DNA of 41,244 nucleotides from the NCBI GenBank assembly GCA_018817425.1, contig JAHITX010000075.1, positions 1-41,244 on the forward strand, in the 5' to 3' direction. Positions 11,292-34,357 of this stretch are shown here, piece by piece; positions within the stretch are counted from its first letter, which is position 1, and each line of letters opens with the position of its first letter. The stretch comes from Pseudomonadota bacterium. GTDB taxonomy: Bacteria > Desulfobacterota > Desulfobacteria > Desulfobacterales > RPRI01. A program made the position numbers and the translations under genes. Under the pieces are notes generated by a model. It was not told the DNA's origin. It was given only the letters and a program-made list of their open reading frames with translations, and ran no database searches.

Positions 11292-11350
11292 TTGCTATTC
11301 ACATTTCTTATAGAAAGCGGAAGTATTAGTGATTATAAAGGAAGAATTGC

Positions 11351-16967: not shown

Positions 16968-16993
16968 TTAAAATAATAAATGGAAGGTGGAAA

Positions 16994-18031: not shown

Positions 18032-18127
18032 TTCAAAAATGTGTTGTTAAACTTCTCTATCCGCATATATATCAAATAGACATGGTGAAATAATCGCAAC
18101 TGCTTTACATATCACAAGGAATATTTC

Positions 18128-18886
18128 ATGCATAAAACAATTCAAGAAAAGATAATTGATTACCTGAAACCCGTTTCACAAGGTCTTATTGTTGCCGATG
18201 CACGTATTGGGCTGGGATATACAAGTGTAAGGCTTGATAATGGAAATATTGGGATTGCTTGGACAGCCAGAAGCAATTCAGGAGGTTGTACTCACGAGGC
18301 AAAGGCTGGAACTCTTGCCGGAAGAACAGCCGTAGAACTTCTTGAGATGCTTGCAAACTCGCATAATCCTCTTTCCAGAACACTTGGCCTTGCAACGGCC
18401 AACGCCCTTGCAGCAGGACTCCCGCATCCTGAAACCACTTCGGTTGACATTCTGGAACTTGCCAATATCCAGGCATCTGACCATGTGGTCATGGTGGGGT
18501 TTTTCGGCCCCCTTGTGCCTGTAATTCGCCGGACCGGTTGCCGCCTTGATATTTTAGAACTGGATAGCAACAGGATTGATACAATATCTCCTGAGAAAGG
18601 TCGAGCCGCACTTGCCGCATGCAGTGTTGCCATAATAACGGCCACATCCATAATTACAGGCACTATAGATGAGCTCCTGTCAGGTCTCGGAAATCCGCGT
18701 GCCGCAATAATTCTGGGACCTTCATCGTTCATGCACCCGAAGATTTTCGCTGATACACCGGTAACCCACATTGCAGGGGCCAGAATCCGTAACACTGCCG
18801 CTGTAGAAAAGATTGTATCGGAAGGCGGCGGTACCATGATCTTAAAGCAGCATATGGACTTTGAGACCATCTGTCTTAAACATTAA
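18128..18886 (+). CDS. DUF4213/DUF364 putative heavy-metal chelation protein
   Basis: This 252-residue cytoplasmic protein has an enolase-N-like DUF4213 front (ADARIGLGYTSVRLDNGNIG ... TLAGRTAVELLEML) and the DUF364 domain behind it (HVVMVGFFGPLVPVIRRTGC, DILELD, AIITATSIITGTIDELL, AIILGPSSFMHPKIFA). The family is annotated as putative heavy-metal chelation because of its structure and its neighbours, mainly metal and cofactor importers; its chemistry is not proven. As last gene of the ABC operon it probably receives or stores the imported metal or chelate. The ribosome binding site AAGGAA is suitably placed. A 6-bp hairpin overlaps the stop codon. Confidence 0.88.
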   Translation: MHKTIQEKIIDYLKPVSQGLIVADARIGLGYTSVRLDNGNIGIAWTARSNSGGCTHEAKAGTLAGRTAVELLEMLANSHNPLSRTLGLATANALAAGLPHPETTSVDILELANIQASDHVVMVGFFGPLVPVIRRTGCRLDILELDSNRIDTISPEKGRAALAACSVAIITATSIITGTIDELLSGLGNPRAAIILGPSSFMHPKIFADTPVTHIAGARIRNTAAVEKIVSEGGGTMILKQHMDFETICLKH

Positions 18887-18952: not shown

Positions 18953-19660
18953 TTATCTTATTATACCTATTACATTAATAACAATTTCATCTCTCAACTT
19001 ATTATCGGTCTTAAGATAAATACTACCCTGGTATTTTCCAGTCTTTTCTTCAATGTTCTTTACTGTTAAAAAATATTTGTCTTCCTTTTTGTTCAGTGCA
19101 AATACAATTTTTTTATCAAGATTGACCGCATAAGATTCTACGATATTAAACGGGTATTTTTCCAAGGGTGTAATAGTAATCCGGGATTGAATCGTTCTGT
19201 CTGAATTACCACTTAAAAATACAATCTTCGGTGCAATAAGGGCAAATGCTTCAACTTCTCCTTTAATAAACAGATTTATTATTTGGTGTTTCGGATCATC
19301 TGTATATACTATTATACTTTTTTTGAAATTTCTGCCCGCATACCCTGCTGTATTAACTCTTATTGAGATCTTCCCTTCGGCGCCCGGAAGTATCTGCCTG
19401 GTATAATCCACAGTCGTACATCCGCAGCTTGTTTTTACTTTGTTTATAGATAAAGGAGCATTGCCCGTGTTTTTTATAATAAAATCATGTGTAACCACAG
19501 CGCTTTCAAGCACACGATCAAATCTGAAACCATTATCTTCCAAAACGGCAGAAGGCGCTAAAGAAGCATTGGTAACAGCTTGTATTTCTTCGGCTTTTGC
19601 TAAAACGAACATAGTAAAAAACAGGATGAAAAATAAAACTAATAATGATTTTAATTTCAT
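18953..19660 (-). CDS. DUF1573 secreted protein
   Basis: This 235-residue protein has a signal peptide (SLLVLFFILFFTMFVLAKAE). It contains the DUF1573 immunoglobulin-like domain, recognisable by FRFDRVLESAVVTHDFIIKN, TGNAPLSINKVKTSCGCTTV and PGAEGKISIRVNTAGYAGRN. The TSCGCT motif is the family hallmark. A second beta-rich half follows without recognised signature. Function is unknown; members are periplasmic or surface proteins. GGAGGAG lies upstream of ATG 19660. It follows the HesB-like gene by 40 nt and is probably co-transcribed with it. Confidence 0.87.
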   Translation of the reverse strand: MKLKSLLVLFFILFFTMFVLAKAEEIQAVTNASLAPSAVLEDNGFRFDRVLESAVVTHDFIIKNTGNAPLSINKVKTSCGCTTVDYTRQILPGAEGKISIRVNTAGYAGRNFKKSIIVYTDDPKHQIINLFIKGEVEAFALIAPKIVFLSGNSDRTIQSRITITPLEKYPFNIVESYAVNLDKKIVFALNKKEDKYFLTVKNIEEKTGKYQGSIYLKTDNKLRDEIVINVIGIIR

Positions 19661-19700: not shown

Positions 19701-20021
19701 TTAGCAGCACGAACCGCCCCCGGAATCGCAACTTGAGCATCCGCTATCAAATTTAAGATTGGATGAAACAATAAACCCGGTTAATCCATAATCCACATTG
19801 ATAGGCTGAGCCTTTTTCAGTAGTTCTCTATCAATTACGTACTGGATTCCGTCAACTTTAAAAAGTTTATCACTATCTTTTTTTTCGTCAAGCCCCATTG
19901 CCATCCGCGGGCCGCAACATCCGCTCTGGTTAAGAAATATCCTGACAGGTTGTATTTCCATTCCTTTATCTTTGAAAAAAGCTTTTAGTTCCTTTTTAGC
20001 TGCTTCTGTAATAATTAACAT
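19701..20021 (-). CDS. HesB/IscA-like small cysteine protein
   Basis: This 106-residue protein resembles the HesB/IscA/ErpA Fe-S carrier fold: ITEAAKKELKAFF, then QSGCCGPRMAMGLDE, a YVIDRELLKKAQPINVDY beta region and GFIVSS. The C-terminus is unusually cysteine- and glycine-rich (GCSSCDSGGGSCC), unlike the CGCG end of true IscA. HesB-like proteins of this style include selenocysteine forms in other anaerobes (from memory); here only Cys codons are seen and the stop is TAA. AAAGGAGG precedes the start. Its place behind an Fe-S-rich operon suggests cluster delivery or metal binding. Confidence 0.8.
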   Translation of the reverse strand: MLIITEAAKKELKAFFKDKGMEIQPVRIFLNQSGCCGPRMAMGLDEKKDSDKLFKVDGIQYVIDRELLKKAQPINVDYGLTGFIVSSNLKFDSGCSSCDSGGGSCC

Positions 20022-20228: not shown

Positions 20229-21104
20229 CTATTTATCAAAACAAAGGTTATAAGATATTGCTCCTTTCGGGCATGAATCCCTGCACAAACCGCAGTTATC
20301 ACAAACTGCACTCTGCAAAGTTGTGTAGTTTACTATCTTGTCCGGCTCCAGATTATAAGGACACACCGATCTGCATAGGTTGCAACTTACACATTCTTTT
20401 TGATCTGTTCTGATTTTATAAATTCGATTAACTCCAATTAGAGACAGACATGCCCCGGACGGACAAAAATACCTGCACCAGGCGCGGGATACAAATAAAA
20501 TTTCAAATACAAGTATAGCAAGCAAAAATATAAGACCGGCAACACTTACTTCCTGATGGGTAAATATCATGGAAAATTCCCTGCCAAGAAGATGGGAAGG
20601 ATCAAAGATTGATATTACGGGAAATCCAAACAAAAAAGCTGTAATCAAAGATGTAGCAAGAATTACAAAACGAAAGTTTTTTATGCGTATCTCTCTTGTA
20701 AGACCTTTTTTTTTCAAAAACGCATTAATTTTTGTTGTAAGTTCCAGTATAAAACCGATCGGGCAAAGCCATGAACAAAACACCCTGCCAAAAAGTAATG
20801 TAATTAATAAAGGAATTAAAACAGCGATGAGCATGGAAGAAGAAACGGATTTTGCTGAAAACACAAAATCAAAAAAAGCTGTAGGATGAATAATGCTAAA
20901 ATTTCCTATTGAAAAACTCCATGTATCACCGGATACTTTCGAAATGGCAGGGGGCGGCAATTGACCCTTTACAATTAATGAGGGTGACCCGTTATACGGA
21001 TTTTGTGAGTATAAGGGCACGGCAATGATAAGGAGAATTATACTTATCTGAGATATACGTCTTAATGGAAGTATTTTAAGATTTTTCTTCTCACTTCTCT
21101 TCAT
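20229..21104 (-). CDS. NapH-like membrane polyferredoxin
   Basis: This 291-residue protein has an N-terminal membrane anchor (ISQISIILLIIAVPLYSQ), further helices around residues 80-110, 145-165 and 190-210, two membrane-side cysteine motifs (FCSWLCPIG and CRYFCPSGACLS) and two C-terminal [4Fe-4S] motifs (CVSCNLCRSVCP and CDNCGLCRDSCP). This is the NapH/NosR/CcoG layout that passes electrons from menaquinol to a periplasmic iron-sulfur partner. It overlaps the NapG-like gene by 4 nt, so the two form a quinol-oxidising module for the molybdopterin enzyme upstream. A decayed copy lies at 1317-1887. A 207-bp gap with no visible gene separates it from the HesB-like gene. Confidence 0.9.
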   Translation of the reverse strand: MKRSEKKNLKILPLRRISQISIILLIIAVPLYSQNPYNGSPSLIVKGQLPPPAISKVSGDTWSFSIGNFSIIHPTAFFDFVFSAKSVSSSMLIAVLIPLLITLLFGRVFCSWLCPIGFILELTTKINAFLKKKGLTREIRIKNFRFVILATSLITAFLFGFPVISIFDPSHLLGREFSMIFTHQEVSVAGLIFLLAILVFEILFVSRAWCRYFCPSGACLSLIGVNRIYKIRTDQKECVSCNLCRSVCPYNLEPDKIVNYTTLQSAVCDNCGLCRDSCPKGAISYNLCFDK

Positions 21105-21886
21105 CTGTCCGACTTGTTTTTTAATACTCTAATTGCCGGCAATTGTGCATTATCTCTATTTTGTGCAATAATTCTTTCCACAAGAGCACCGTATCTTAGC
21201 TGAAAATAATCCGGCACATTAGTTTCGTTTATAAATTTTGCATTGAATTTTCTTACCGGACAGACAAAAACACACCGGCCACATCCGATACAGGCTTTTT
21301 GATTAACATAAGGCGATATGCCGCTTCTTGATACTTCTTCATCAGGCGGCCTTGAAAGAAGTGCTCTGTCTTTAAGCGGGCAATTGAAATAACATTCTCC
21401 GCAAAAACTAAACTGCCATGCCACACAAAGCTTCCTGTTAAGATTTGCTGTCCCGATTTTCATTTCTTTTGGAAGCTTTGATAAAACTTCTATATCGTTG
21501 AGTATTGGTTTTAGTGCTCCTGTCGGGCATGCTTTTCCACAGCGCAAGTATTTTCCAAGAGGCTTTGATTTTCCGTCTGTCCCTGTTGTCCGGCATAAAT
21601 AACAGGGGGTTTTTACAGGATCTATATATGGTGTATAAATATTAAGACCGGAATCGGCCCCTAATAAACGAATACTGTCATAAGGACATGCTTCGACACA
21701 TTTGCCGCATCTGATACATTTTGAAAGAAAATCAGATGCGGCACCAGGCGGCCTTAAGACATCTTCTTTACTTCTTAATATCGGAAAAGATACTGTGGTA
21801 GCCAACATACCGGTATTTTTCAAAAAGGTCCTTCTTGTTATTTTAAATTCATCTGCCTTGTGATGTTTCAATCTATACTTTTTCAA
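21101..21886 (-). CDS. NapG-like periplasmic ferredoxin with twin-arginine signal
   Basis: This 261-residue protein has a Tat signal (ITRRTFLKNTGMLATTVSFP). Four cysteine groups follow: CIRCGKCVEACP, a spaced CYLC ... CGKACP set, CVAWQFSFCGECYFNCP, and CIGCGRCVFVCP, consistent with four [4Fe-4S] clusters, as in NapG and related MauM/NapG ferredoxins. It should relay electrons between the NapH-like membrane protein and the molybdopterin oxidoreductase in the periplasm. Its start overlaps the end of the oxidoreductase gene by 14 nt. There is no NapA-type nitrate reductase or cytochrome nearby, so the enzyme served is a different one. Confidence 0.9.
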   Translation of the reverse strand: MKKYRLKHHKADEFKITRRTFLKNTGMLATTVSFPILRSKEDVLRPPGAASDFLSKCIRCGKCVEACPYDSIRLLGADSGLNIYTPYIDPVKTPCYLCRTTGTDGKSKPLGKYLRCGKACPTGALKPILNDIEVLSKLPKEMKIGTANLNRKLCVAWQFSFCGECYFNCPLKDRALLSRPPDEEVSRSGISPYVNQKACIGCGRCVFVCPVRKFNAKFINETNVPDYFQLRYGALVERIIAQNRDNAQLPAIRVLKNKSDR

Positions 21887-24059
21887 CTTTACACAAAAAT
21901 CCTCTATACCCCGGAAAAGAGCTTATCGGGTCCAGAGATTGAGCCGAATCGTCTGTCAATTCGTTTACATTACTTTTTGACCATCCATGAGACATGGCTA
22001 CTATTCCGGATTTCAGGCTTTTATTAAGTTGTGCCTTTGCCTGGATGCTGCCTCTAAGAGAGCTTATTGATACATTATTTCCTTCGGATATTCCAAGAGA
22101 TGAAGCATCGGCCGGATTCATCTCAATCACAGGACCTGGTGATTTTGCTTTAAGCGAAGCAAGATTTCTAAACTGGGAATGAATATAGTATGGTATCCGT
22201 ATGCCGGAGGTCATGAGAAGCGGATATTTTGCAAGCAGTTTTTTGTCGGCAGGTCCTTCGTACGGTTCAACATAGTCCGGCAACGGGTTATATCCGGCAT
22301 CTGCCAATGTTTGTGAATGAAATTCAATTTTCCCGGATGGAGTCTTTATTTTTTCCTCCAGTTCTTTCATGTTCCCCGACTTTAAAGGATGATCAATACC
22401 ATTAAAATTTTCCCTCAGATCCGCAGCGGTAATATTGATGGGAGAAAGGTGTTCATCTATTGCTTCATCCAGGGTCGCCCATGGAAATTCTTTTTCATAG
22501 CCCATCTTCTTTGCAAGCTCAAACCAGAGCTTCCACTCCGGCCAGGCATTTCCCTGTTCGGGTATAACCTTTGGACTGATATAAATCCTATCCCTTATCT
22601 TGATATTGTCTCTTTCAAGACATGATGTTGCAGGCAGAAATATATCGGCCATTTTCGCAGTCTCTGTCATAAATAGATCATATACAACTACCAAATCCAT
22701 TTTCTTATAGGCTTTTCTCTGATGTGAAGAGTTGGGGCCTGTTACAATCGGATTACCTCCAATAACCATAAGCGCCTTAACAGGATATGGTTTACCCGTC
22801 AAAACGGTATCCGGAAGAAGATTTGCGGTTACCATTTTTCTTGACTGCCACAAAACGGGATACCGGTCGGCAGAATATCCTTTGGATGTGAATGGCTTAT
22901 AATCATCTAATTCCATATCTGTAAGCCTGACTTTTTCTCCGGAAGAAATCATACCTCCCTTTACATTCACATTTCCGCATAAAGCTTGTATCAACATAAC
23001 AGACCTGATTGTCTGCACTCCGTTTATATGAAGTTCCAATGCATTGCCTGTTTCAATACACGCAGGCGAATTTTCGGCATACATCATTGTTGCATTTATA
23101 ATATCCTTTGCCGGAATCCCCGTTATAGTTTCTGCCAGCTCAGGTTTATATTTTTTAACAAGCTCTTCATATTCAGAAAACCCGACACCGTATTTTTCTG
23201 CAATATCCGTGTGATAAAGATTATTTCCTAAAATTATATTTGTCATTGCCAGAGCAAGCACCCCGTCTGTTCCGGGACGCGGCTTAAGATGAATATCTGC
23301 CATTTGAGTCATGGGATTTGCTCTTGGATCAATGCAGATAAGTTTTGCACCTCTTTCCCTGGCAGGCAGTACTTTACTAAACCATTCAAGAAGGCTTGAA
23401 GATGACGGATTGCTTCCCCATTGAACCATGCATTTAGTATTTTCATAATCAGGGTGAACAGAACCTATGCTGTATTTTTTTGCCATCATAGTTGAAACTG
23501 CGCACTGGCTTCCACAGCCGGTAAAATTTGGAGTTCCGTAAACATTCGAAAACCGCCTGAATAACTGCCTGTAAAAAGGTGCTCTTACCTCGGTAACTCC
23601 ATAATGGCAGACTGTTGATTGGGGGCCATAATCAATTTTAAGTTTTGACAGTTTTTCCGAAATAATATTTAATGCTTCATCCCACGAAATATCCACCCAT
23701 TTATCGCCGACCCGCTTTCCTGGATTAAGAATTCTATCCGGAGAATATGTTTGTTCAACATTTGCAAGCCCCATATCGCACATAAACCCTTTGCTGTTGG
23801 GATCATCCTTGTTTGGTACAACTGCAACAATCCGATCATTTTTGATATATGTCTTCATGCCGCAATCAGATCCGCAAAGACCGCATCTTGTGATGAATTC
23901 CTTAGCCCCGGCAAGAGAATCAACTTTATTACTGCATCCTGCGAAAAAGCCTGCACCGCCTATTGTTACACTGATTCCTGCAAGCTCCAAATATTTAAGA
24001 AACTCCCTCCTTGTATATCCCTTAGCTGTTTCTTCACCTATGAAGATTCTTTTTTTCAT
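21873..24059 (-). CDS. Periplasmic molybdopterin oxidoreductase (DMSO-reductase family)
   Basis: This 728-residue enzyme has a Tat motif (TRREFLKYL, RR at 17-18) and a lipobox-like FFAGC (C42), so it may be a Tat-exported lipoprotein. The N-terminal cluster site is C59xxC62xxxC66 ... C94. The Mo or W ligand is probably C186 in GCGSQCAVSTMMA, aligned with the NapA-type Cys position. Further family landmarks are VQWGSNPSSSS, LICIDPRANPMTQMADIHLK, LMVIGGNPIVTGP and DIFLPATSCLERD, and a C-terminal domain VIEMNPADASSLGI. No subunit-specific signature gives the substrate; PsrA/PhsA-like and acetylene-hydratase-like members have similar size. With NapGH-like partners it is most simply a quinol-dependent periplasmic reductase acting on the ligand imported by this operon. 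Confidence 0.9.
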   Translation of the reverse strand: MKKRIFIGEETAKGYTRREFLKYLELAGISVTIGGAGFFAGCSNKVDSLAGAKEFITRCGLCGSDCGMKTYIKNDRIVAVVPNKDDPNSKGFMCDMGLANVEQTYSPDRILNPGKRVGDKWVDISWDEALNIISEKLSKLKIDYGPQSTVCHYGVTEVRAPFYRQLFRRFSNVYGTPNFTGCGSQCAVSTMMAKKYSIGSVHPDYENTKCMVQWGSNPSSSSLLEWFSKVLPARERGAKLICIDPRANPMTQMADIHLKPRPGTDGVLALAMTNIILGNNLYHTDIAEKYGVGFSEYEELVKKYKPELAETITGIPAKDIINATMMYAENSPACIETGNALELHINGVQTIRSVMLIQALCGNVNVKGGMISSGEKVRLTDMELDDYKPFTSKGYSADRYPVLWQSRKMVTANLLPDTVLTGKPYPVKALMVIGGNPIVTGPNSSHQRKAYKKMDLVVVYDLFMTETAKMADIFLPATSCLERDNIKIRDRIYISPKVIPEQGNAWPEWKLWFELAKKMGYEKEFPWATLDEAIDEHLSPINITAADLRENFNGIDHPLKSGNMKELEEKIKTPSGKIEFHSQTLADAGYNPLPDYVEPYEGPADKKLLAKYPLLMTSGIRIPYYIHSQFRNLASLKAKSPGPVIEMNPADASSLGISEGNNVSISSLRGSIQAKAQLNKSLKSGIVAMSHGWSKSNVNELTDDSAQSLDPISSFPGYRGFLCKVEKV

Positions 24060-24105
24060 AGTCTTGACCTCCGTAATAAATTTATTTCTTCTCCCAATTT
24101 TAAAA

Positions 24106-25086
24106 TCAATTTTTATCTGGCAGATAACTGTAATCGATAAAATCTTCTATGGGAATTCTTCCCGGAAGATGGCCGTTTTCAATCATGATGTCCTGCTGTT
24201 TGTATAACTGTTTAATAGGTTCCCTTCCGTCTTCAAAATGCCTCAGGGCAGAGCGCATGGCCACTTTCATTTCAACTCCGCAATATTTCGGTATCCAGCG
24301 TCTTGCTTCTTTTTCATTGTTTTTTATATAATCAAATGACCTGACAAGGCCCCGTAAAAAGGCTTTTGCTTTTTCCGGGTTTTCACGAAGATACTCATCC
24401 GTAAAAAACAATCCTGAAAATACATATCCTGGGATTGCATCATTGAATGAAAAAAGCAGCCGACTCGCACCATGCATCTCCAGCATGGTCGCTGTCGGAT
24501 CTCAGGCGATTATTACATCAACGCCTTTTGACCTTAAGGCAGCTTCATGCTTCATGGCCTCATCGAGCTTAATTCCTTTGATTTCATGAATATCATCAAA
24601 GCTTAACCCGGCTTTTATCAAGGTTTCGCGAAGAATCATCTTAGCGCTTACGTCTCCGCTGGTTGCAATCCTTTTACCTTGTAGATCAGTAATTTTTTGT
24701 ATTTCAACGTTTGTTGCATCCGCATGAAGACCGCATCTTGTGCCATTATGCGCCCTGCCGAGCCATGCAACGATCTTTATGGGAATTTTTCTGTATGCGG
24801 CATAAAAAAATGATGCAGGTGCAATATGACCGGCATTTATGTCGCCATGAAGCGCTGAAGCGATAATGTTTTGTTCACCTACAAGTCTTACAAGCTCGAC
24901 TTTGAGTCCTTCTTTTTCCCAAAACCCCTCTTCAATTCCCACGTAAAGCGGAAGATCGTCTATACTTCTTCCGTAAGTGACCTTCATGCCGCCCAGCGGA
25001 AAGTCTTTGGCAAGGCAGGGATATGAATTGAGTAATACAATTGCAGTAACGGATATGATCATAATTGTAATTTTTTTAAAATACAT
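24106..25086 (-). CDS. NitT/TauT-type ABC substrate-binding protein, candidate selenoprotein (Sec195)
   Basis: Read through TGA 24504-24502, the frame is one 326-residue protein. Residues 1-194 give a signal peptide (VLLNSYPCLA) and the N-lobe of an NMT1/SsuA-like binding protein (MKVTYGRSIDDLPLYVGIEE, DLQGKRIATSGD, SFDDIHEIKG, GVDVIIA). After the TGA the frame continues DPTATMLEMHGASRLLF and a normal C-lobe (GLFFTDEYLRENPEKAKAFL). The TGA sits where these proteins have the ligand-side loop after the VD-II-A strand. Three nt beyond it a 39-nt hairpin folds (24498-24460). No other lesion is present, so I read the TGA as selenocysteine. The gene follows its permease by 26 nt. Cargo is unknown; the selenol could bind a soft metal or metalloid compound. 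Confidence 0.8.
24460..24498 (-). promoter_or_regulatory. Candidate bacterial SECIS hairpin in the binding-protein gene
   Basis: On the minus strand, starting 3 nt after TGA 24504-24502: lower stem CCGAC (24498-24494) with GTCGG (24464-24460), a symmetrical 4x4 internal loop, a perfect 7-bp upper stem ACCATGC (24489-24483) with GCATGGT (24475-24469), and a 7-nt apical loop TGGAGAT containing GG. The upper stem begins 12 nt after the TGA, close to the layout of the E. coli fdhF SECIS. All bases lie within codons. Confidence 0.72.
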
Positions 25087-25112
25087 TCTGATTCCTTATA
25101 AACTCTATTTTT

Positions 25113-25883
25113 TTATGCCATTCCCCCGGATAAAGAGGTTTCGGTATGCCATGTCAGTACCCTGTTCTGGATAATTCGGGCAATGCGGTCCATACTAAAC
25201 CCTATAGATGAAATAACGATAATTCCTGCAAACATTCTCGCTGTGGCAAATGTTCGTTGTGCATCTATAACTAGAAAGCCTATTCCGGAATCGGCAGCAA
25301 GCATTTCCACTCCTACAATTGCGAGCATTGACATGGCGGTCGAAATCCTCATACCGGTAACAATCATGGGAAGGGCTGCCGGTATAAGTACTTTAATCCA
25401 TAACTGAAAACCATTTGCACCAAGTGAACGCGCAGCCTGAATGAGTTTTTTATCTACACCTTTGATTCCTGCAATTGTATTTAAGACTATAGGAAAAAAA
25501 CATGCTTTAAAAATAATCGCCACTTTAGAGCCGTTTCCTATACCGAACCAGATAAACATAACAGGCACCAACGCAAAGGTGGAAATCGGTCTGATCAATT
25601 CTATAAGCGGATCGATAATATCTTCGACAACTGTTGACCATGCTACAAGAAGTCCTATAGTCAGACCTGCAATTGCTGCGAGAATGTATCCGCTAAATGC
25701 ACGGGCAATACTGATAGCAATGTGCGGAAATACCTCACCGGTAATTATCATTGCATACAATTCCTTAAGCATTGCGGACGGAGGCGGGAAAAAGAAAGGA
25801 TCCACCCAGATAAAACGGCCGATGATTTCCCATATTGCAAGCACACATATGGGAGAGATGATTTTTCTGTATTTAAACCTCAT
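25113..25883 (-). CDS. SsuC/TauC-type ABC permease
   Basis: This protein of about 256 residues is a BPD_transp_1 permease. It has an N-terminal helix ([18 protein letters not shown]), a helix at [20 protein letters not shown], the EAA-type loop [20 protein letters not shown] that contacts the ATPase, and [20 protein letters not shown]. The NitT/TauT family moves nitrate, sulfonates, taurine, pyrimidine precursors and others. I choose ATG 25883, overlapping the ATPase stop by 11 nt; the frame is open further upstream but that part lies within the ATPase gene. It pairs with the selenocysteine-candidate binding protein downstream. Confidence 0.9.
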
Positions 25884-26655
25884 CGTTGCCTTCTTGAAAT
25901 TCTTCCCATACAAGTTCTTTAAGATATCTTTCATATTCTCTAAACTCAGGCGAAACAAACATATCCCTGGTGCGTGGTCTGGGAAGATCAATTTTAATCA
26001 ATTCTTTAATCTTTCCTGGCCGCTTGGTCATAATTGCAACTTTATCAGACAAATAAACCGCCTCGCTTATGCTATGGGTTACAAAAAGTACTGTGCATTT
26101 TGCCTCATGCCATATTCGCAAAAGCTCTGTCTGAAGGCCTTCACGGGTAAGTGCATCCAATGATCCAAATGGTTCGTCAAGCAAAATCACCTTGGGCTTA
26201 TTTACAAGCGCCCTTGCAATTGCTACCCGCTGTTTCATGCCTCCGCTCAACTCGTGAGGATAGCGGTCTTCAAAACCCTCCAGGCCTACGAGTTCAATAT
26301 AGACCGAAGCAATTTCCCGGCGTTTGTTTTTCGGTATTCTTTTAAGTTCCAGACCGAACTCAACATTACCTCTGACGGTTTTCCATGGGAAAAGAAGATA
26401 TTCCTGAAAGACAATGGATCTTTGTGGATCAGGGCCGTTTACCGGTTGGCCTTTGATATATAACTTACCTGCCGTAGTTTTTTCCAACCCTGCAACTAAT
26501 AACAGAAAAGTTGATTTTCCGCATCCGCTAGGACCGACTATGCTGGTAAATTCACGTTCTTCAACTTTAAGATTAAAGTCTTCGATTGCAATTACATTCT
26601 TGCTTTTTCCATCCGAATATACTTTTGTAAGTTCTTCCGCCTCAATGAGACACAT
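25873..26655 (-). CDS. SsuB/TauB-type ABC ATPase
   Basis: This protein of about 260 residues has Walker [11 protein letters not shown]-loop [10 protein letters not shown], signature [14 protein letters not shown], Walker [17 protein letters not shown] and H-loop [16 protein letters not shown], a textbook NitT/TauT ATPase. The frame is open to 26694, but ATG 26655 puts the conserved start ([15 protein letters not shown]) at the N-terminus and overlaps the end of the HgdB-like gene by 14 nt. It drives the permease at 25113-25883. The basic C-terminal extension ([20 protein letters not shown]) is common in the family. Confidence 0.92.
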
Positions 26656-27814
26656 GCTGATTTCCCATTGAAATCTGCTCCAGAAAACCTTCAATGCGTA
26701 CTCTGAGCTGTCCGATATCGGACTGCGAAAAATCCGTTACAATATGCAGAAAAGGAAGGCCGTGTTTTCCTTTAACAACTTCTTTTACCCTGTAAGATTC
26801 GATATTAAAAGTATGGCAAAACTGCCATGTAAGATCTATAACACCTTGTATATTATATTCCGTTATAAGCCTGTCGATATCTTTAAACCTTGTATTATTC
26901 GGCGTCATACAGGAACAAGTTACTCTTAGATATCTTTGGGCAATCGCTTCAATAGGATCTTTGTTTTCATCAACCATATCTTCCATGCGTGTAATTCCGC
27001 CACAACCTTCCTGACAGACGACAACCCCTCCGCATTCCTCCACCAGTTTAAGCACCTTATCGCATCCCAGGCTGTTTCCCAAACCAGTCCAGAGGATTCT
27101 TGGCCTATCCGCAGAACAGGCATATTCATTATTATGTATTTTTGTTTTTAGCCCTTCGAGAAGATTACCAAGTTTTTCTCTATAAGGTTTGCGATCAACC
27201 GTATAGGCGAATTTGGTGGTTAATCCAACAAGGTCAACACCCATAACCGGCACTGGATGTGACTTACGGCATTTATGAATTTCAACTAAAAGCCTGCGTT
27301 CTTCATTTACATCTTTGATGGCCTGTTTCAATTTTTCGTCTGTTATTTTTACCCCAAGTTGCTTTTCAATAAATACTTTAAGCTTTTTAACCTCCGCTAT
27401 CCAGTGGACAAGAGCTTCATTTTCTTCAGACATCTGAGGGAGTTCCATAATGTGCATGGGCTTTTCCCATGCAAGCAGTTCATACATTTTTTTTCTGCCA
27501 TCGCATGTTGTTTCACCCACAATACAATCGGTAAGCGGAAATATTGGACAGGTGTTTGAAACAGCACGACCGTAAGTTGCTTTAACCATAGGGCATAAGT
27601 CAGCAGGCAGCACTTCTTCTGCTGCTGCAATCGGCTCTTCAGTAGTTCCGCAAAGTCCAACCGATATGGCATCGGCTGCCCATACAAGTTCCTTTGGAAA
27701 ATAAGAACACATTGAACCTATAACTTTTCTTCCCTCATCTTTCGCCATTTCAAGCTCTAAGGCCAGATTTGTTCTTACTTCCTGAATAGTATCATTAACC
27801 TTGAATTCCTTCAT
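26642..27814 (-). CDS. HgdB/BcrB-family iron-sulfur protein, possibly double-cubane type
   Basis: This 390-residue protein belongs to the 2-hydroxyacyl-CoA dehydratase D-component family. It shows [54 protein letters not shown], the late Fe-S region CSCMTPN and [13 protein letters not shown], and the ending [20 protein letters not shown]. True dehydratases and benzoyl-CoA reductases need two unlike subunits; only one is present here, with a matching ASKHA activator at 33545. That pattern fits the homodimeric double-cubane-cluster proteins (YjiM-like), which perform ATP-driven reductions of small molecules, rather than a dehydratase. AGGAGA precedes ATG 27814. Cytoplasmic. Its substrate may be what the ABC importer delivers. 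Confidence 0.87.
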
Positions 27815-27825
27815 CAGGTCTCCTG

Positions 27826-28551
27826 TTATGTTATTTCAAACACTACTGTAATTTCAATCGGAATGGGTCCTCTGAAAAGTCTTAAAGGAGGTCTTGGAAA
27901 AGGTGATGCTTTTTTTACGGCTTCAATAACGGCATTGTCTAAAGTTCTGTCTCTTGATGTTCCTACAATCGATAGTCCGGATATACTGCCGTCAAGTCCG
28001 ACAACAAATTCCACTGTTGACCGGCCCTCTATCCGATTCATCTTTGCAATTCTAGGATATTCTTTTTTACTTTCTATCCTGAGCTGAACAAGATCAAAAT
28101 AATCTTTTTTCGTTATTACATCCTTTAATCCGTCTGATACTCCCGGATCAAGGGCGGCAAGATCCAAAGCAGAGCCTTTTAAAATTCCGGAAGCACTGAT
28201 CTGTTCGGTCATTTTGCTTGAATAGTTATTATTTATGTTGTCTATTTTGATAGGTTTGAAGCTGGGCATAATCCTTGTTTGTATTTTGAGCTTTTGAATT
28301 TCTTTCGGGACGGAAACAGGTTTCGGTTTGTGACGGGGTCTTGGAATCTCTCTTGAAACAGACTTTGAAATATCTTCCATAGTTAACTCTATAAATGATA
28401 TCATGCTTGACTTATATAGCCCTGAAACATGTAAAGCCGCTATTATATGGATTCCAAGAGAAATTCCAATCAGTCCTCTTAGCAGCCAGTTTGTATTTCC
28501 TTTTCTTTCGTAACGGTCACCAATAATATTTGTTTCCCATGTAGTTTCCAT
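27826..28551 (-). CDS. tonB: TonB protein
   Basis: This protein of about 241 residues has an N-terminal membrane anchor (WLLRGLIGISLGIHIIAALH), a proline/basic periplasmic spacer (SREIPRPRHKPKPVSVPKEI) and the C-terminal TonB domain, seen as YPRIAKMNRIEGRSTVEFVV, GLDGSISGLSIV and KASPFPRPP. It couples the proton gradient through ExbBD to the receptor. I choose ATG 28551, 5 nt after the ExbD stop with AAGGA upstream, over the frame's earlier ATG at 28584, which lies inside exbD. A dedicated tonB in the same operon as its receptor suggests a specialised uptake system. Confidence 0.9.
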   Translation of the reverse strand: METTWETNIIGDRYERKGNTNWLLRGLIGISLGIHIIAALHVSGLYKSSMISFIELTMEDISKSVSREIPRPRHKPKPVSVPKEIQKLKIQTRIMPSFKPIKIDNINNNYSSKMTEQISASGILKGSALDLAALDPGVSDGLKDVITKKDYFDLVQLRIESKKEYPRIAKMNRIEGRSTVEFVVGLDGSISGLSIVGTSRDRTLDNAVIEAVKKASPFPRPPLRLFRGPIPIEITVVFEIT

Positions 28552-28556
28552 TACAA

Positions 28557-28964
28557 TTACAAATCCTTTTCCGTAGCAAGGCAAAGCCTGCCGGCTCCGG
28601 CAGCTTTGGCAACATCCATGACCTTGACCACCTTGTTAAGTATTACTCCCCTGTCGGATCTGACCACTACCAGTTTATCCTTATCGTTTCCGACCATTTC
28701 CTTAACCTTCTTGAAAAGTTCGCCTATCGCGACTTCCTGTTCGTTAAGATATGTTCTGCCGTCTTTATCAACAAATATTGTGATGGATTCCTCCACCTGG
28801 GGCTTTGATGCTTTTGCCTGGGGAAGCTTGATCTTTATTCCTTCATCCACCATGAAATTTGTGGTTAAAAGAAAATAAATAAGCAGCATGAAAATAATAT
28901 CAATAAGCGAGGTAAGCGGCATCTGCACTTCATAAATTGCCCTCTTTTTACGGCTTTTAATCAT
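28557..28964 (-). CDS. exbD: ExbD-type energiser protein
   Basis: This 135-residue protein has a short cytoplasmic basic head, one transmembrane helix containing the conserved aspartate (PLTSLIDIIFMLLIYFLLTT; D22), and a periplasmic domain ending VVKVMDVAKAAGAGRLCLAT. These are the standard ExbD/TolR features. It works with the ExbB encoded 12 nt upstream and the TonB 5 nt downstream to power the receptor at 31444-33519. Confidence 0.93.
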   Translation of the reverse strand: MIKSRKKRAIYEVQMPLTSLIDIIFMLLIYFLLTTNFMVDEGIKIKLPQAKASKPQVEESITIFVDKDGRTYLNEQEVAIGELFKKVKEMVGNDKDKLVVVRSDRGVILNKVVKVMDVAKAAGAGRLCLATEKDL

Positions 28965-28976
28965 AAAGCAATCCTT

Positions 28977-29594
28977 TTAAGCTTTGTTTCTAAGAGATGA
29001 TATGGTTTTTAAAAACAAAACACTTCCCTGCTGAATTCTGGACTCATAGCCGTTTACCATTGACAGCAGATAGCTGTGAGCAACAACAATGGGAAGAGCT
29101 ACCGCAAGACCGAATGCTGTTGTCAGCATAGCCTCCCAGATACCTCCTGCAAGAACTGAAGAATTGACCTTGCCTCCCATTTCCTGGATAACCATAAATG
29201 CCTTGATCATACCCATAACCGTACCTAAAAGCCCCATCATAGGTACTATGTTTCCCATTGTCGCAAGAGCCTGAAGATATCGCGAAAGACCCTGAACCTC
29301 TTCGTCGGTCGCATGGACAATAACGGTCTCAATGGTTTCCCTGTCCTGGTCTTTTACTTCCAGGGCTTTTACCAACACCCGTCCAATAGGTGAATTGCTC
29401 TGACCTGCAATTGCAAAAGCATCTTGATCATCCCTGTTTTTCAGTTTCTCAGCCACCTTATACTCAAGCCCCTGTCCGCGCTTACGCATCTTGCCAATCC
29501 GTATAAGACGTTCTATAAAAATAGCCAATGATATAACCGAACACAGAAGAATCGGCCACATGCATATACCGCCCTTCGAAAAGAATTCGAGCAT
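28977..29594 (-). CDS. exbB: ExbB/MotA-TolQ-family proton channel protein
   Basis: This 205-residue protein has a first membrane helix (GGICMWPILLCSVISLAIFI), a cytoplasmic loop, and the MotA/TolQ/ExbB signature LQALATMGNIVPMMGLLGTV followed by GMIKAFM and the third helix AMLTTAFGLAVALPIVVAHS. It forms the pentameric proton channel that surrounds ExbD. A GGGGG ribosome binding site lies upstream of ATG 29594. It starts the exbB-exbD-tonB block of this operon. Confidence 0.93.
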   Translation of the reverse strand: MLEFFSKGGICMWPILLCSVISLAIFIERLIRIGKMRKRGQGLEYKVAEKLKNRDDQDAFAIAGQSNSPIGRVLVKALEVKDQDRETIETVIVHATDEEVQGLSRYLQALATMGNIVPMMGLLGTVMGMIKAFMVIQEMGGKVNSSVLAGGIWEAMLTTAFGLAVALPIVVAHSYLLSMVNGYESRIQQGSVLFLKTISSLRNKA

Positions 29595-29625
29595 ATCGAT
29601 ACACCCCCGTTATTTATTATATTTT

Positions 29626-31437
29626 TTATTTATCTGACTTATTCTCACAATTACTTTTGTCTTCAATAACATCCGCAATTCCGTCATAATCCAGATCCTT
29701 TGATTTTTTTACTATTGCTTCGGATTCATCATATTCTTCCCAGATGTCCGGTTTGCCGTCATGGTTTGAATCTTCCTCAACTCTTGTTACACGATCCTTG
29801 TCATAGTAAAACCAGGTATCAATCCTGCCGTCTCCGTCAACATCCTTTTCGGCGCGAACTGCCTGCTGTTTGCCGTCATAATACCAGATAGTATTTAAGA
29901 TACCGGTGTACCCGACATCTTCCTTACTCTTTACAAGCTTTTTGTCTTTGTCGTAATATTCAACAAGATCCGGTTTCCCGTCGGCGTTTTCATCGATTTC
30001 TTTTACTCTTAAAATACCATCCTTGTAAAAATGACGGGTATCGGTGTTTTTATCTCCATCGATATCCGTTTCTATAACCACATCCCAACTTTTACGGTTA
30101 AACCATTGGGTGGTTTCGAATCTGCCATTGTGATCCTGATCCGTAAGCAGTTTTATTCTGTTTTCGTTTTTGTCAAAATACAGTTTATGATCAACCGCCC
30201 CGTTTTCATTTTCATCTTTTTCCAGTCTTACGATTTTTTCATTTTCGTAGTACTGCCATGTATCAGGTTTGCCGTTATAATCCGTATCACTTTCAACCTT
30301 TTGTTTTTCTCCCTTTTTGTTGAAAAAAATCTTTATATCAGGCTTTGAGTCTTTATTTTCATCAAGTGTCTGCAAACTCGGTTTACTGTCTTTAAAAAAG
30401 GTAATCTGATCTATGAATCCATCTCCTTGTGAATCATATTCCATTTTACTTATCTCGCCCTTTTCAAAATATCTTGTTCGATCTATTTTTCCTGTATATC
30501 TGCTGTCTTCCCTGATTACTGCCGGAAGTCCGTTTGAATCGAAATCACAGAAGAAGTCCGCTGTTTTATCAAAATCAGTGTCTTTTTCCTGGTAAAAAGG
30601 CTTTTCGTTTTTAAACTTGAGTGTTATATCAAATACCTTGTCATTGTTTGAATCTTTTTGTTCTTCATATATTTTTCCGTTTTTAAAAATAATTACGGTT
30701 TCAAACCAGCCGTCATAATCCATGTCCTTTTTCTGTAAAACGATATCTCCTTTTTCAAAAAACCGGAAAGTATCCATATTACCGCTTTTGTCCGAATCCA
30801 TCCTGATTTCTTTTACAAGACCTTCACCATCAAACAATATAACTTTTTCAACCAGCCGATCACTGTCCATATCTTCTTTTCTTTCAAAACGCTTTCCGTT
30901 TTGATATGTTTCCCAGACATTTATTTTTCCATCTGCTTTGGTATCTTTTGTTGAACTTGCAATTACTCCCTTATCAAAATAGATAATAGTATCGAAATAA
31001 GCGTCGCCTGTTGAATCCTTTTCAATCTTTAAAGGATTTTCTTTCTTGTCAAAGTATATAATCTGATCGGCATTGCCATTGCCTGTGCTGTCCTTTTCCT
31101 GCCTGACTCTTTTACCATCTTTGATAAAATCCCGGCAGTCGATCTTTTGATTAAAATCAAGATCCCTTTCAACACGCACTGGTTTGCCATTTTCATAATA
31201 CTGGAACCTGTCCATTATTCCATCGGCATTGCCGTCATTTTCTACCTTAAATACTTTTCCACCTGCATCCAGATAGACTAACTGATCAATTTTCCCGTCC
31301 TTGTTCGTGTCAAATTTGATGACTTCCTCTTTCGCATGAAGAATACCATTTGAATACGGCAGCAGAATCAATACAAAACCGATGCTTACAATATAGATAA
31401 ATGTTAATTTCAAAATACTAACGGTTCGTTTTTTCAT
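29626..31437 (-). CDS. Exported protein with 23 Asp-rich (calcium-binding-like) repeats
   Basis: This 603-residue protein has a signal peptide (IYIVSIGFVLILLPYSNGIL, cut near HAKEE). The entire mature part consists of about 23 repeats of 20-26 residues, each of the form D-x-N/D-x-D/N-G-K-x-D followed by a beta-like strand (YY-x-x-GK) and a basic/acidic linker. Examples are DTNKDGKIDQLVYL, DVDGDGRIDTWFYY and DSNHDGKPDIWEEY. The loop resembles EF-hand-type calcium ligands in thrombospondin-3 or dockerin repeats, but without flanking helices. The product is therefore an elongated periplasmic or surface protein. It sits between the receptor (6-nt gap) and exbB, an uncommon position. Function is unknown; it could bind Ca2+, stabilise the receptor or act as a surface ligand trap. 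Confidence 0.8.
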   Translation of the reverse strand: MKKRTVSILKLTFIYIVSIGFVLILLPYSNGILHAKEEVIKFDTNKDGKIDQLVYLDAGGKVFKVENDGNADGIMDRFQYYENGKPVRVERDLDFNQKIDCRDFIKDGKRVRQEKDSTGNGNADQIIYFDKKENPLKIEKDSTGDAYFDTIIYFDKGVIASSTKDTKADGKINVWETYQNGKRFERKEDMDSDRLVEKVILFDGEGLVKEIRMDSDKSGNMDTFRFFEKGDIVLQKKDMDYDGWFETVIIFKNGKIYEEQKDSNNDKVFDITLKFKNEKPFYQEKDTDFDKTADFFCDFDSNGLPAVIREDSRYTGKIDRTRYFEKGEISKMEYDSQGDGFIDQITFFKDSKPSLQTLDENKDSKPDIKIFFNKKGEKQKVESDTDYNGKPDTWQYYENEKIVRLEKDENENGAVDHKLYFDKNENRIKLLTDQDHNGRFETTQWFNRKSWDVVIETDIDGDKNTDTRHFYKDGILRVKEIDENADGKPDLVEYYDKDKKLVKSKEDVGYTGILNTIWYYDGKQQAVRAEKDVDGDGRIDTWFYYDKDRVTRVEEDSNHDGKPDIWEEYDESEAIVKKSKDLDYDGIADVIEDKSNCENKSDK

Positions 31438-31443
31438 AAAAAA

Positions 31444-33519
31444 TTAAAAGAATGTATATTTAAATGTTAAACCATAAATTTGGCGTTTCATGGGATAACC
31501 GTATGTTTGCTCGTAGTTTTCCCCGAACAAATTATTAATATAAGCGTTTAGCTTTGCTTTGTTCTTATAAAATGAATACTGCACACCGATATCCGATGTT
31601 GTATATTCACTAAGAGTATATCCTGCTTCACTGTATCTCTTGCCAACGTAACGCTGATCCCAGGAAAGTTGTACAGAACCGCTAAGATGATATCTTAAAC
31701 TAAGATTAATCTTATGCTTGGGTGGTAATTCCACTAAAAAGTCTACCAATTTTGTGGGATCATCTTCTTTAACTTCGTTATCAACATATGTATAGTTTCC
31801 AAAAGCAGTCATTTTTTTATAATTTATGTTAAATTCATATTCAATTCCCCAGAACCTTACGGTATCGATATTCCATCCACTCCATGTGCTGTTATGAATT
31901 ACATCAGCTCTGTTTATTGTAACGTAATCTGTGATATCAGTATAATAAACTACAAATCTGTTATCGATACCTTCTGTAAAACGATGATAAATTCCGGTTT
32001 CATATTGCCATGTTGTTTCATATTCAAGTTTTTTTTGTTTGCCGCCGGCAGACATAGCAGAGCCATCTCAGCACCCCGGAGTGTCATAGTCCTTGGCAAC
32101 GGATACATATACATTGGTTTCCGGATTGAAATTATATGTTAAGGCAAATTTTGGTAAGATGAACCAGTCATTGTATAAATGCCTTGAAGAAGCCGCTTCA
32201 TCGGAAAGCTTAAAAGGATAAGTTTGCTGTCTTGCCTTTGAAACACGCAGGCCGGTTTTCATCATCCATTTATCGGAAATATTCCACAAGTCTTCAAAAT
32301 ATCCCGCATGGATTCTAAAAATATCATGTAATTCCTTGGCTTCAGTTCTTTTAAAATTATACCCGAGTGTGAGTGAATTATTTTTAAAAGGATACAAAGA
32401 CCATTTGATGCCCCCTCCGACATGTCTTTCGGTTATCTCATCACCGCCATATGTCGTGGGAACACCTGTAGATGTAAAATAGTAAAGTTTCTCATAATTT
32501 TGAGTATTGTAGTAGTATATTTTTAACTTTGTATCCTTTATCGGCTGTTCAAAAGCCACATCCATGTGCTTTACGGATCTTTCCTTGTAATTTTTACCAG
32601 GATAATCATAGGATATCGCCCTATATCTTATCGTATCCGCATCTTCGGGAACTTTGGGATAATCCGGATCATATCCTGCAACACCGGGCCAGTTTACTAC
32701 ATTGTTCCCCGTTTCCGTGGATGAGCCTTTATAACTTAAGAACAAAATTCCTTGAAAGGGGAATTGATAATTAAACCTGGCCGAATAGTCTTCACCGGAG
32801 AAATCATTATTATTCAAATACGCTTCATCGTCGCGGTGTCCGTAATTTAAATAATAGGTAAGACCTCCCACACCCCCGTCTACGTTGACTCTTTCACTAT
32901 GTGAAATTGCATTGGTGTAATCAGAATTTGCCGAATAATCCTGCGTATATGTCAGTCTCGGAACCGGAGAGTCTCTTTTTCTTCCTTTTTTTGTAATGAT
33001 ATTTATGACACCGCCTTCTGCACTTTCATAAGCGGCTGATGCACCACCTCTGATAATCTCTATCTTTTCGATATCACTTAAAGGTAAAGCAGACCAATCT
33101 ATTGTTGTGTTTTGCTTTCCGGTTGAACCTGTTAGTGGTCTTCCGTCCATTGCCACAATAAAACGGCTGTCATCAAATCCTCTCATCATAACAACAGCCT
33201 GTGCATCAGGAGCTCCGGAACTTTTCAACACATCAATTCCGGCAATGTTCATAAGTATGTCTTCTATTCTTTCTACTTTGCCTGCTTTTACATATTTATC
33301 CACATCCACTAAAGTACTGGTAGGAGTATATGTTACAGCACCCCCGCCAAAAGCGTGGACAAAAACATCTCCCAGCTTAACACGTTCATCCTCAATAGAA
33401 TCTTCTTTTTTAGGACAGTCAGGGCAATTTTCATCCTCCTGTGCCCTTACGTTCTGAGGCATGAACAGGCATAAAGCTAAAAAGCCCAGTCCTAATAATT
33501 TTAAAAATTTAAATATCAT
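31444..33519 (-). CDS. TonB-dependent receptor, candidate selenoprotein (Sec484)
   Basis: Read through one in-frame TGA (32070-32068) the frame gives 691 residues. The signal peptide ends NVRAQEDENCPDCPKK, an unusual cysteine-rich start; the plug has RIEDILMNIAGIDVLKSSGA, MMRGFDDSRFIVAMDGRPLT and IEIIRGGASAAYESAEGGVI. The barrel reaches FALTYNFNPETNVYVSVAKD and the segment YDTPGC, then TGA, then DGSAMSAGGKQKKLEYETTW. It ends in FKYTFF, with terminal phenylalanines. The region around the TGA corresponds to the APxL ... LKPE segment of other receptors. Frame and content are intact on both sides, with no second lesion. The Cys-Sec pair would be a strong soft-metal or redox site. GGGAGGT precedes the start. 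Confidence 0.78.
32036..32054 (-). promoter_or_regulatory. Candidate SECIS hairpin in the TonB receptor gene
   Basis: Thirteen nt after TGA 32070-32068, TGTCTGCC (32054-32047) pairs with GGCAAACA (32043-32036) in 7 of 8 positions, with one C-A mismatch, around a GGC loop. The position and the loop guanines fit a bacterial SECIS, but the stem is shorter and less convincing than the one in the binding-protein gene. Confidence 0.45.
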
Positions 33520-33544
33520 TCAAAAAATGACCTCCCTTCACTTC

Positions 33545-34357
33545 TTATATTTTTGGTGCTTTTATACTCATTTTATTATCGCTTCCCGAAAATCCTTCTT
33601 TTGCAATTATTGATGCGCCCAGAGCTCCCGTAATCTGTGGATCTTCTGAAATTGCAGTAAATTTAATTTTTAAATACTTTTCCAAAGACGATCTCAAACC
33701 GTTATTTTTAGCAACACCACCCACAAATACAATATTACACCCAAGGCCAATACGTTTAGCCAGAGTACCAATACGTCTTGCTATACTTTCATTAAGCCCT
33801 GCCGCTATATCTTCTTTGGTTTCTCCTGCAGCAAGAAGAGAAATTACCTCCGATTCGGCAAACACAACGCAAGTGCTGTTGATTGAACATGGCTTTCTGG
33901 AAGCCTGACAATAATTGCTGAAAGATTCCGTATCTGTTTTAAGAGCTCTTGTCATAGCATCTAAAAAGCGTCCGGTACCTGCTGCACAACGGTCGTTCAT
34001 GGTAAAATCATAAATTGTTCCATCACGTTTAAGTTTAATAGCCTTGCTGTCCTGGCCACCTATATCAATGATACCTTCAACAGCAGGATTTAAATATCGA
34101 ACACCTTTAGCCTGGCAGCTTAATTCCGTTATTGTCTGATCAAAGAAATCAAGGGATACGCGACCGTATCCGGTACCCACAATTCGCTTGATTTCTTTAC
34201 TACTGCATCCAATCGTATCAAGTGCTTTTTCATATACGGTTATTCCGGCAAGTTTCGGATTTGAATCCGTAGGGATAACAGCATATGAACAAATCGTGGA
34301 TTCATCCAAAATTACACATTTTGCAGTGATGGAACCTATGTCTATTCCGGCAAACAT
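33545..34357 (-). CDS. ASKHA-type ATPase, activator of an HgdB-family enzyme
   Basis: This 270-residue protein belongs to the BcrAD/BadFG/HgdC family. Its ATP-binding motifs are GIDIGSITAKCVILD at the start, DIGGQDSKAIKL in the middle and FVGGVAKNNGL near the end. Two cysteines that bridge a [4Fe-4S] cluster between monomers lie in MNDRCAAGTGRFLDAM and STCVVFAESEVISLLA. It uses ATP to push electrons to very low potential and hand them to its partner, here most likely the HgdB-like protein at 26642, although six genes for TonB transport separate the two. It is the first gene of the 13-gene minus-strand operon. Confidence 0.92.
   Translation of the reverse strand: MFAGIDIGSITAKCVILDESTICSYAVIPTDSNPKLAGITVYEKALDTIGCSSKEIKRIVGTGYGRVSLDFFDQTITELSCQAKGVRYLNPAVEGIIDIGGQDSKAIKLKRDGTIYDFTMNDRCAAGTGRFLDAMTRALKTDTESFSNYCQASRKPCSINSTCVVFAESEVISLLAAGETKEDIAAGLNESIARRIGTLAKRIGLGCNIVFVGGVAKNNGLRSSLEKYLKIKFTAISEDPQITGALGASIIAKEGFSGSDNKMSIKAPKI

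Follow-up and report, generated by a model that had tools for sequence, protein, structure and literature searches.

A thirteen-gene operon with a selenocysteine-containing outer-membrane receptor and binding protein: a candidate selenium importer in the Desulfobacterales

What does a bacterium import and reduce by means of a transport system in which both of the proteins predicted to contact the ligand are selenoproteins? This question is raised by a stretch of 41,244 nucleotides from a member of the Desulfobacterales (contig JAHITX010000075.1 of assembly GCA_018817425.1, positions 1 to 41,244; hereafter the window), where 13 consecutive genes, all of them found among the open reading frames of the window, occupy the minus strand from 34357 to 20229. 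The spacing between them ranges from a 119-nt overlap (alternative starts) to a 43-nt gap, with several overlaps, and they plausibly form one predicted transcription unit. In order, they encode the activator of a double-cubane-cluster protein (DCCP), a TonB-dependent receptor containing selenocysteine (Sec), a repeat protein, ExbB, ExbD, TonB, the DCCP itself, the ABC components SsuB and SsuC, a Sec-containing binding protein, a molybdenum (Mo) oxidoreductase, and proteins resembling NapG and NapH (Table 1). We propose, tentatively and at a probability of about 0.38, that this operon encodes a dedicated high-affinity importer of selenium, the first to be known from prokaryotes, in the form of a TonB-ABC relay in which both cargo-handling proteins are selenoproteins and which is coupled to ATP-driven reduction by the DCCP. 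A preliminary description of this DNA had reported the same row of genes, which we confirm with no gap above 43 nt; all of its genes are present, and an exported repeat protein of 603 residues that it left unnamed belongs to the set as well.

When TGA is read as a residue, an internal TGA appears in two genes of the operon only, those of the receptor and the binding protein. In the remaining frames the added TGA lies only beyond their own stop or 5' of their own start, and the second TGA of the binding-protein frame is a normal stop, at which relatives terminate by TGA, TAG or TAA. The preliminary description had placed UGA in both predicted ligand-contact proteins and in those alone, and this stands, the codons being 484 of the receptor and 195 of the binding protein. 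Nor are they strain-specific mutations, which that description had named as a possible objection: the UGA occupies an identical codon position in all 13 operon-type binding proteins and is kept in 10 of 10 receptors with the Sec region on the contig, and the 14 receptor matches over 297 genomes of the phylum have one TGA each. The genome of the window encodes tRNA-Sec (75.6 bits), SelB and SelD, the last itself with one TGA. Cysteine-containing homologues were absent from the 13 binding proteins, the 10 receptors and the 14 receptor matches, a limited sampling. Such homologues are reported for a sibling selenoprotein TonB receptor in the portion of PMC12013277 available to us.

Downstream of the binding-protein UGA lies a hairpin, ACCATGC-TGGAGAT-GCATGGT, that is nearly invariant across 11 sequences. 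Within the 15 codons that follow the UGA, codon identity at invariant residues is 0.72 (n = 10), compared with 0.38 elsewhere (n = 67), a value that none of 20,000 random draws reached. No base pair of the hairpin is altered on both sides, so its support is one of sequence constraint and not of covariation. The criteria for a bacterial Sec insertion sequence (SECIS), as given in the available part of PMC13188914, are a loop of 3-9 nt with a G in its first two positions, situated 16-37 nt after the UGA, and an energy of -7.5 kcal/mol or lower. A hairpin of this kind follows all 11 tested binding-protein UGAs (85 of 662 control codons) and six of the nine receptor UGAs (88 of 1224 control codons). 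The corresponding test of synonymous constraint in the receptor was uninformative because it had a single usable column.

Could the two UGAs instead be ordinary stops or tryptophan codons, in proteins that are broken or recoded? The alignment to the structure of Xanthomonas citri SsuA (3e4r) does place Sec195 opposite a Trp, that of the WDP motif, but the UGAs are kept in every one of the 13 binding proteins and 10 receptors, the frame is open on either side of them, the hairpin is conserved, the Sec machinery is present, and neither TGG nor a Cys codon occurs at either site in these sequences. We regard the stop or Trp reading as very improbable, and rejected both Trp and pseudogene interpretations on the conserved UGAs and the hairpin. 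Given these conserved codons, the constrained SECIS hairpin of the binding protein, and the presence of tRNA-Sec, SelB and SelD, the UGAs of both receptor and binding protein almost certainly encode selenocysteine.

A dedicated second SelB was considered as a part of the system but is no more than a lead, with a single SelB in 8 of the 11 operon genomes searched. A divergent second SelB does occur in three genomes with Sec receptors (L018 11912-13996, minus strand; L066 6304-8226, minus strand; L107 2543-4495, plus strand), and in a tree a SelB2 clade unites a copy near a binding-protein fragment (G132), a copy beside a receptor of the sibling PCPU type (G231) and a copy in G212; SelB2 could be a specialised decoder.

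How widespread is the operon, and which of its genes are constant? The 297 genomes of the phylum were searched with the binding protein (E up to 1e-20) and six gave a match, five of these with TGA at the Sec codon; the sixth, a distant homologue (29%, G035), has Val at that codon and no TGA, and was set aside. A scan of a contig collection yielded 10 loci, one a 92-residue fragment match, and is incomplete because, of the two peptide patterns used, one alone can fit a Sec form, while 291 genomes of the order gave seven matches, namely the window's own, four known contigs and two new ones. With repeats removed, the operon-type set comprises 13 genomes (the window, L025, TRIP AH-1, L027-L033, G208, G477 and G536), whose titles, where named, are those of Desulfobacteraceae and other Deltaproteobacteria metagenome-assembled genomes (MAGs), a 'Proteobacteria' MAG and a Myxococcota MAG. 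The distribution is patchy, the operon occurring in 3 of 10 genomes of the window's own genus, and no relatives were found in a viral collection. Of the 297 genomes, five have the CU motif-type receptor (over cut-off), and exactly these five also have the Sec binding protein, a coincidence with a chance of about 5e-11 when uncorrected for shared ancestry. Hence the conserved co-occurrence that the preliminary description had called for is seen.

Short contigs were scored as absence, so the presence counts over the 13 loci are lower bounds. SsuC and the binding protein are in all 13, the receptor in 11 (not L032 or G477; in L027 its last 70 residues only), SsuB in 11 (not L030 or L032), and the DCCP in 10 (not L032 or G477; cut off in L028). 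The DCCP activator is present in eight loci, ExbB, TonB and the repeat protein in seven each, and ExbD in six. The Mo oxidoreductase and both NapG and NapH are intact in the window and in TRIP AH-1 only, with fragments of the Mo enzyme in L025 and L027 and of NapH in L025, and the remaining nine loci, of which some end early, showed none of the three. From this table, therefore, the conserved core is the DCCP, SsuBC, the binding protein and the receptor; it is often accompanied by the DCCP activator, ExbBD-TonB and the repeat protein, and a respiratory module is accessory to it. The Mo enzyme, intact in 2 of 13 loci, was rejected as a core part, and the view of the preliminary description that the Mo oxidoreductase and NapGH belong to one 'complete' system is not upheld.

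Uptake followed by reduction is probably the function of the operon, based on its architecture of an energised outer-membrane receptor, a periplasmic binding protein, an ABC importer and an ATP-driven low-potential reductase, although import and ATP-driven reduction are predicted here from protein families. These were assigned by a Pfam scan (10 proteins) and an NCBIfam scan (10 of the 13 proteins). The pairing of an HgdB-like protein with an ASKHA activator, as preliminarily described, was found in the sense that both partners of a predicted ATP-driven low-potential reductase score over their family cut-offs (Table 1), but the HgdB-like protein is a DCCP by its NF040772 score. Its assignment as a CoA dehydratase or benzoyl-CoA reductase was rejected (HadC 74.6 against a cut-off of 700; BzdN 112.6 against 453.8). 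In the mechanism that we propose, the TonB receptor, powered by its own ExbBD-TonB, would capture a scarce compound at the cell surface by means of a Cys-Sec pair, the Sec binding protein would collect it in the periplasm and pass it to SsuBC, and the cytoplasmic DCCP, driven by ATP through its activator, would reduce it. Where present, the Mo enzyme and NapGH might provide an optional reduction step in the periplasm.

What kind of compound could this be? All 13 operon-type binding proteins share His113, Cys118, His121, Sec195 and His205, a set that differs in both the distant homologue G035 and the aligned structure 3qsl. To judge by residue conservation, this His/Cys/Sec set, which looks like a soft-ligand site, and the Cys-Sec pair of the receptor would touch the ligand. 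The presence of Sec in both predicted ligand-contact proteins, together with the His/Cys/Sec set, points to a soft cargo that the binding protein would hold through these five residues. Modeling suggests that U484 of the receptor is in a loop between two long strands. The AlphaFold models were poor, with a mean predicted local distance difference test score (pLDDT) of 47.5 for the binding protein and 51.0 for the receptor, and for this reason no pocket geometry is claimed. In the accessible parts of the TauA and NrtT pocket descriptions, the Sec position could not be linked to any numbered contact residue.

Selenium is the best single candidate for such a cargo, at somewhat less than even odds, as an oxyanion, an organoselenium compound or selenium bound to sulfur, and gene context is what points to it. 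Among the 297 genomes, 52 have both YedE and a DCCP over cut-off, giving 61 pairs; in 11 of these pairs, from 10 genomes and including the operon of G208, the two genes are no more than 10 kb apart, where 0.4 would be expected if a genome is taken to be 3.3 Mb in size. Divergent to the operon in G208 are a porin, YedE (493 bits, cut-off 200), a gene resembling YedF, and one whose product is homologous to a protein that carries the Pfam Se/S carrier domain. In G252, of the same genus, contig C107 ends with a partial DCCP that is divergent to a porin and YedE, and the other operon genes are at the end of contig C120, its presumed neighbour. A further DCCP is present in four operon loci (G536, L031, AH-1 and L027). 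In G536 and L031 it clusters with the SelD/YedF-adjacent DCCP of the window's genome (77% identical), and in AH-1 and L027 it is closest to a YedE-adjacent DCCP in G045 (66-68%). A binding-protein fragment with UGA in TRIP AH-1 is near the second SelB, a SufS-type desulfurase, an XdhC-family gene and a NifU-like gene. In the available text of Lin et al. (2015, PMC5322559), HgdB-like and activase genes are among those that a single genome associates with YedE, YedF and further selenium genes, and the dicubane protein is called provisionally linked to selenium in that of PMC10418091. If the cargo is selenium, the operon would therefore be a high-affinity selenium scavenger feeding SelD.

Apart from the DCCP of the operon, the window's genome has one within a cluster of selenium genes, on contig C79, where it directly precedes SelD and YedF (L070 9069-12170, plus strand).

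Several observations weigh against the proposed reading. Three of the nine receptor SECIS hairpins, the window's included (-6.1 compared with -7.5), miss the energy limit. DCCP and YedE co-occur across genomes no more often than expected (52 compared with 46.8), YedE over cut-off was not found in the window's genome, and SelD, SelB and YedE are not near the operon in most operon genomes, as exemplified by the closed genome G536 in which SelD and YedE are megabases away. Among the 12 of 13 genomes with coordinates, YedE is beside the operon in G208 and G252 only, which are of one genus, and a single adjacency event in 12 genomes has P ~0.17 by chance. The operon DCCPs form a clade of their own (support 100/100) apart from the larger group that holds most of the SelD- and YedE-adjacent DCCPs, although the operon side of the tree, in which the placement of two long-branch rows (selD_G302 and oth_G104) is unsure, also includes one DCCP adjacent to YedE and two adjacent to SelD. 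L032 and G477 carry the ABC part with neither receptor nor DCCP in the sequence read. Moreover, the genes upstream of the operon in G536 encode an ArsR-type regulator (88.8 against a cut-off of 55) and a SaoE/SO_0444-like permease (141 bits, cut-off 325), together with a thioredoxin-like protein and one that resembles TsoB/DsbD (46.5 bits against a cut-off of 805), and this set favours a metal or organometal cargo.

A soft metal, metalloid or organometal is a serious rival to selenium and ranks second, as somewhat less likely. By this account the operon would resemble the Sec-assisted organometallic (SAO) system: a soft metal or organometal would be bound by the selenols together with the His/Cys residues, and the DCCP, with the Mo enzyme where present, would reduce or detoxify it. 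The binding protein does have a Sec-x-Pro motif like that listed for SaoX in the accessible part of a review (PMC13188914), and its five invariant His, Cys and Sec residues resemble a soft-metal site, but its score against the SaoX model is 52.8 bits (six relatives, 50.1-59.8) where the cut-off is 300, and the G536 permease likewise falls short of SaoE. The 10 proteins of the operon scanned with NCBIfam gave no other Sao or Mer family among the matches listed, the flanking genes having been searched for mer and ars in G536 alone, and a dedicated TonB uptake step would be odd for detoxification. Less likely still, in third place, is the uptake and reductive cleavage of a sulfur compound or some other small organic compound (sulfonate-like or thio, for example), in which Sec would act as a covalent trap or a redox sensor instead of recognising selenium or metal. 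In line with this, the NMT1/SsuA fold group includes both the binding protein and the permease, the solved relatives include sulfonate and taurine binding proteins, and several hosts are titled as Desulfobacteraceae or related MAGs. Yet the binding protein is under the cut-off both of the SsuA family model (TIGR01728, 108.1 against 163.5; six relatives, 100.3-123.4) and of the taurine model (23.3 bits against 304), and at the position of the WDP Trp of X. citri SsuA it carries Sec. Selenium remains our preferred cargo.

If selenium is indeed imported, the uptake system is built from, and can be made only with, the very element that it brings in, which amounts to positive feedback on selenium status. 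The operon provides a concrete, testable candidate for a selenium importer, and were the cargo a metal or organometal instead, it would remain an importer of a trace element that is based on Sec and includes passage of the outer membrane. It also offers a candidate physiological setting for a DCCP, and suggests that selenocysteine may serve in ligand capture both at the cell surface and in the periplasm.

Table 1. Features of the 13-gene operon and its two Sec codons, in order of transcription; scores are in bits.
Feature	Coordinates	Strand	Family evidence
DCCP activator/reductase (ASKHA, BcrAD_BadFG; acyl-CoA dehydratase activase type)	33545..34357	-	PF01869, 196; TIGR00241, 261.5 (cut-off 125.4)
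TonB-dependent receptor, predicted Sec at U484 in PGCUD motif, CU motif-type	31444..33519	-	NF049946, 1118.2 (cut-off 700)
Receptor UGA (predicted Sec), codon 484	32068..32070	-	
Weak SECIS-like hairpin of receptor mRNA, loop GGC, 21 nt after UGA, -6.1 kcal/mol	32040..32050	-	
Exported repeat protein, 603 aa, many acidic D-x-D-x-D-G type repeats (type judged by eye)	29626..31437	-	
ExbB-type proton channel	28977..29594	-	PF01618
ExbD-type subunit	28557..28964	-	PF02472
TonB (start likely downstream of 28584)	27826..28584	-	PF03544
DCCP, HgdB fold	26642..27814	-	NF040772, 483.3 (cut-off 350)
ABC ATPase, SsuB/TauB type	25873..26694	-	PF00005
ABC permease, SsuC/TauC type	25113..25991	-	PF00528
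ABC substrate-binding protein, NMT1/SsuA fold, predicted Sec at U195 in UDP motif (195-197)	24103..25086	-	PF09084, 88
Binding-protein UGA (predicted Sec), codon 195	24502..24504	-	
SECIS hairpin of binding-protein mRNA, 7-nt loop TGGAGAT, 19 nt after UGA	24467..24492	-	
Exported molybdopterin oxidoreductase (accessory)	21873..24059	-	Under every cut-off among the matches listed (25 of 27 NCBIfam)
NapG-like ferredoxin (accessory)	21101..21886	-	NF007012, 111.5 (under cut-off 269)
NapH-like membrane quinol dehydrogenase (accessory)	20229..21104	-	NF007013, 130.2 (under cut-off 234)

Other genes of the window bear on the surroundings of the operon. Directly downstream, at 19701-20021 on the minus strand, is an IscA/HesB-type gene that scores 99.7 against NF038090 (IscA_HesB_Se; cut-off 85) and is free of in-frame UGA; a relative of its product (39%) is located beyond YedE in G208. 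It is followed by a DUF1573 gene (18953-19660, minus strand), of which a 56% relative is near the second SelB and the binding-protein fragment of TRIP AH-1 (L018 15151-15750). A second uptake cluster occupies 7691-18886 on the plus strand and contains two TonB receptors, FmdE, a methyltransferase, a FecCD-type ABC transporter, three BtuF-like proteins and a DUF364-like protein, FmdE being named by Pfam and the others by look. A related set is directly upstream of the L031 operon (FecCD 35%, ABC 34%, FmdE 28% and BtuF 25%). At 1317-1745 (minus strand) there is a truncated second NapH-like gene whose product, judged by eye, closely resembles the C-terminal half of the operon NapH-like protein, which suggests that a duplicate of the accessory module was once there. 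A shared upstream motif was sought in nine regions and its top score, 17, equalled the top of four shuffles; promoter-like sites numbered 53, compared with 42.6 (standard deviation 6.4) in shuffles, and terminator-like sites 10, compared with 12.5.

How does the operon relate to systems that are already known? The receptor of the window and the four other operon receptors scanned are members by score of NF049946, the CU motif-type family with the siblings PCPU, PUIUD and FCYXU, but the family name covers the receptor only, and the linkage of the CU receptor to a Sec binding protein, SsuBC and a DCCP was found in this analysis. A sibling selenoprotein TonB receptor has already been published (the available parts of PMC12013277 and PMC13188914). 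PCPU-type receptors are present in nine further genomes, with one TGA each, and are within 15 kb of selenium genes in two of the nine (P ~0.02), namely a second SelB and YedE in G231 and SelD, YedF and YedE in G273. The PCPU receptors differ from the CU receptor in their neighbours, which in G231, where the domains were checked, are a tetrapyrrole-methylase and a DUF4198 protein, and their loci are a different system that uses the same kind of Sec receptor. An exported tetrapyrrole-methylase-like protein, judged by look outside G231, is beside the receptor in seven of the nine loci (L057, L059, L060, L061, L064, L066 and L067), often with a DUF4198-like protein.

Taken singly, the receptor family, the DCCP and ABC binding proteins that carry Sec (SaoX, SaoB) are all known. 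The preliminary description had regarded the system as undescribed, and this holds for the combination of receptor, Sec binding protein, SsuBC and DCCP, for which no published description was found in the open literature, although an earlier notice is possible. It does not hold for the parts, given an NCBIfam family for the receptor, the published sibling Sec receptor, the ties of DCCPs to selenium and the published SAO system. The literature consulted also included PMC2398784, PMC6906117, PMC5623697 and PMC11423573.

A double-cubane-cluster protein and its reductase (DCCP/DCCPR) were reportedly described by Jeoung and Dobbek in 2018, and to our knowledge the in vivo substrate of DCCPs is open. 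The operon resembles DCCP/DCCPR in that its protein is over the NF040772 cut-off and an activator gene is in the same operon, and it differs in that the operon DCCPs form a clade of their own. The clusters of YedE, YedF, SelD, HgdB-like and activase genes in the available text of Lin et al. (2015, PMC5322559) share with our data the adjacency of DCCP and YedE, which is reproduced here, and differ in that this text mentions neither a TonB receptor nor an ABC binding protein. The SAO system, attributed to Haft and Gwadz (2023) in the accessible part of the review (PMC13188914), is an earlier Sec-rich ABC system that is similar in having an ABC importer with Sec-containing binding proteins, a UxP motif in SaoX, and several selenoproteins per operon, the likeness of UDP (195-197) to this motif implying no positional match as no SaoX sequence was aligned. 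Unlike SAO, the operon scores far under the SaoX cut-off, has no other Sao family among the matches listed, and adds an outer-membrane receptor, ExbBD-TonB and a DCCP. Finally, the SsuABC and TauABC sulfonate importers share with it the fold of the binding protein and the ABC parts, and are distinguished from it by the Trp of WDP in place of which the operon protein has a predicted Sec (alignment to 3e4r), by the conserved His/Cys set of the latter, and by its TonB part.

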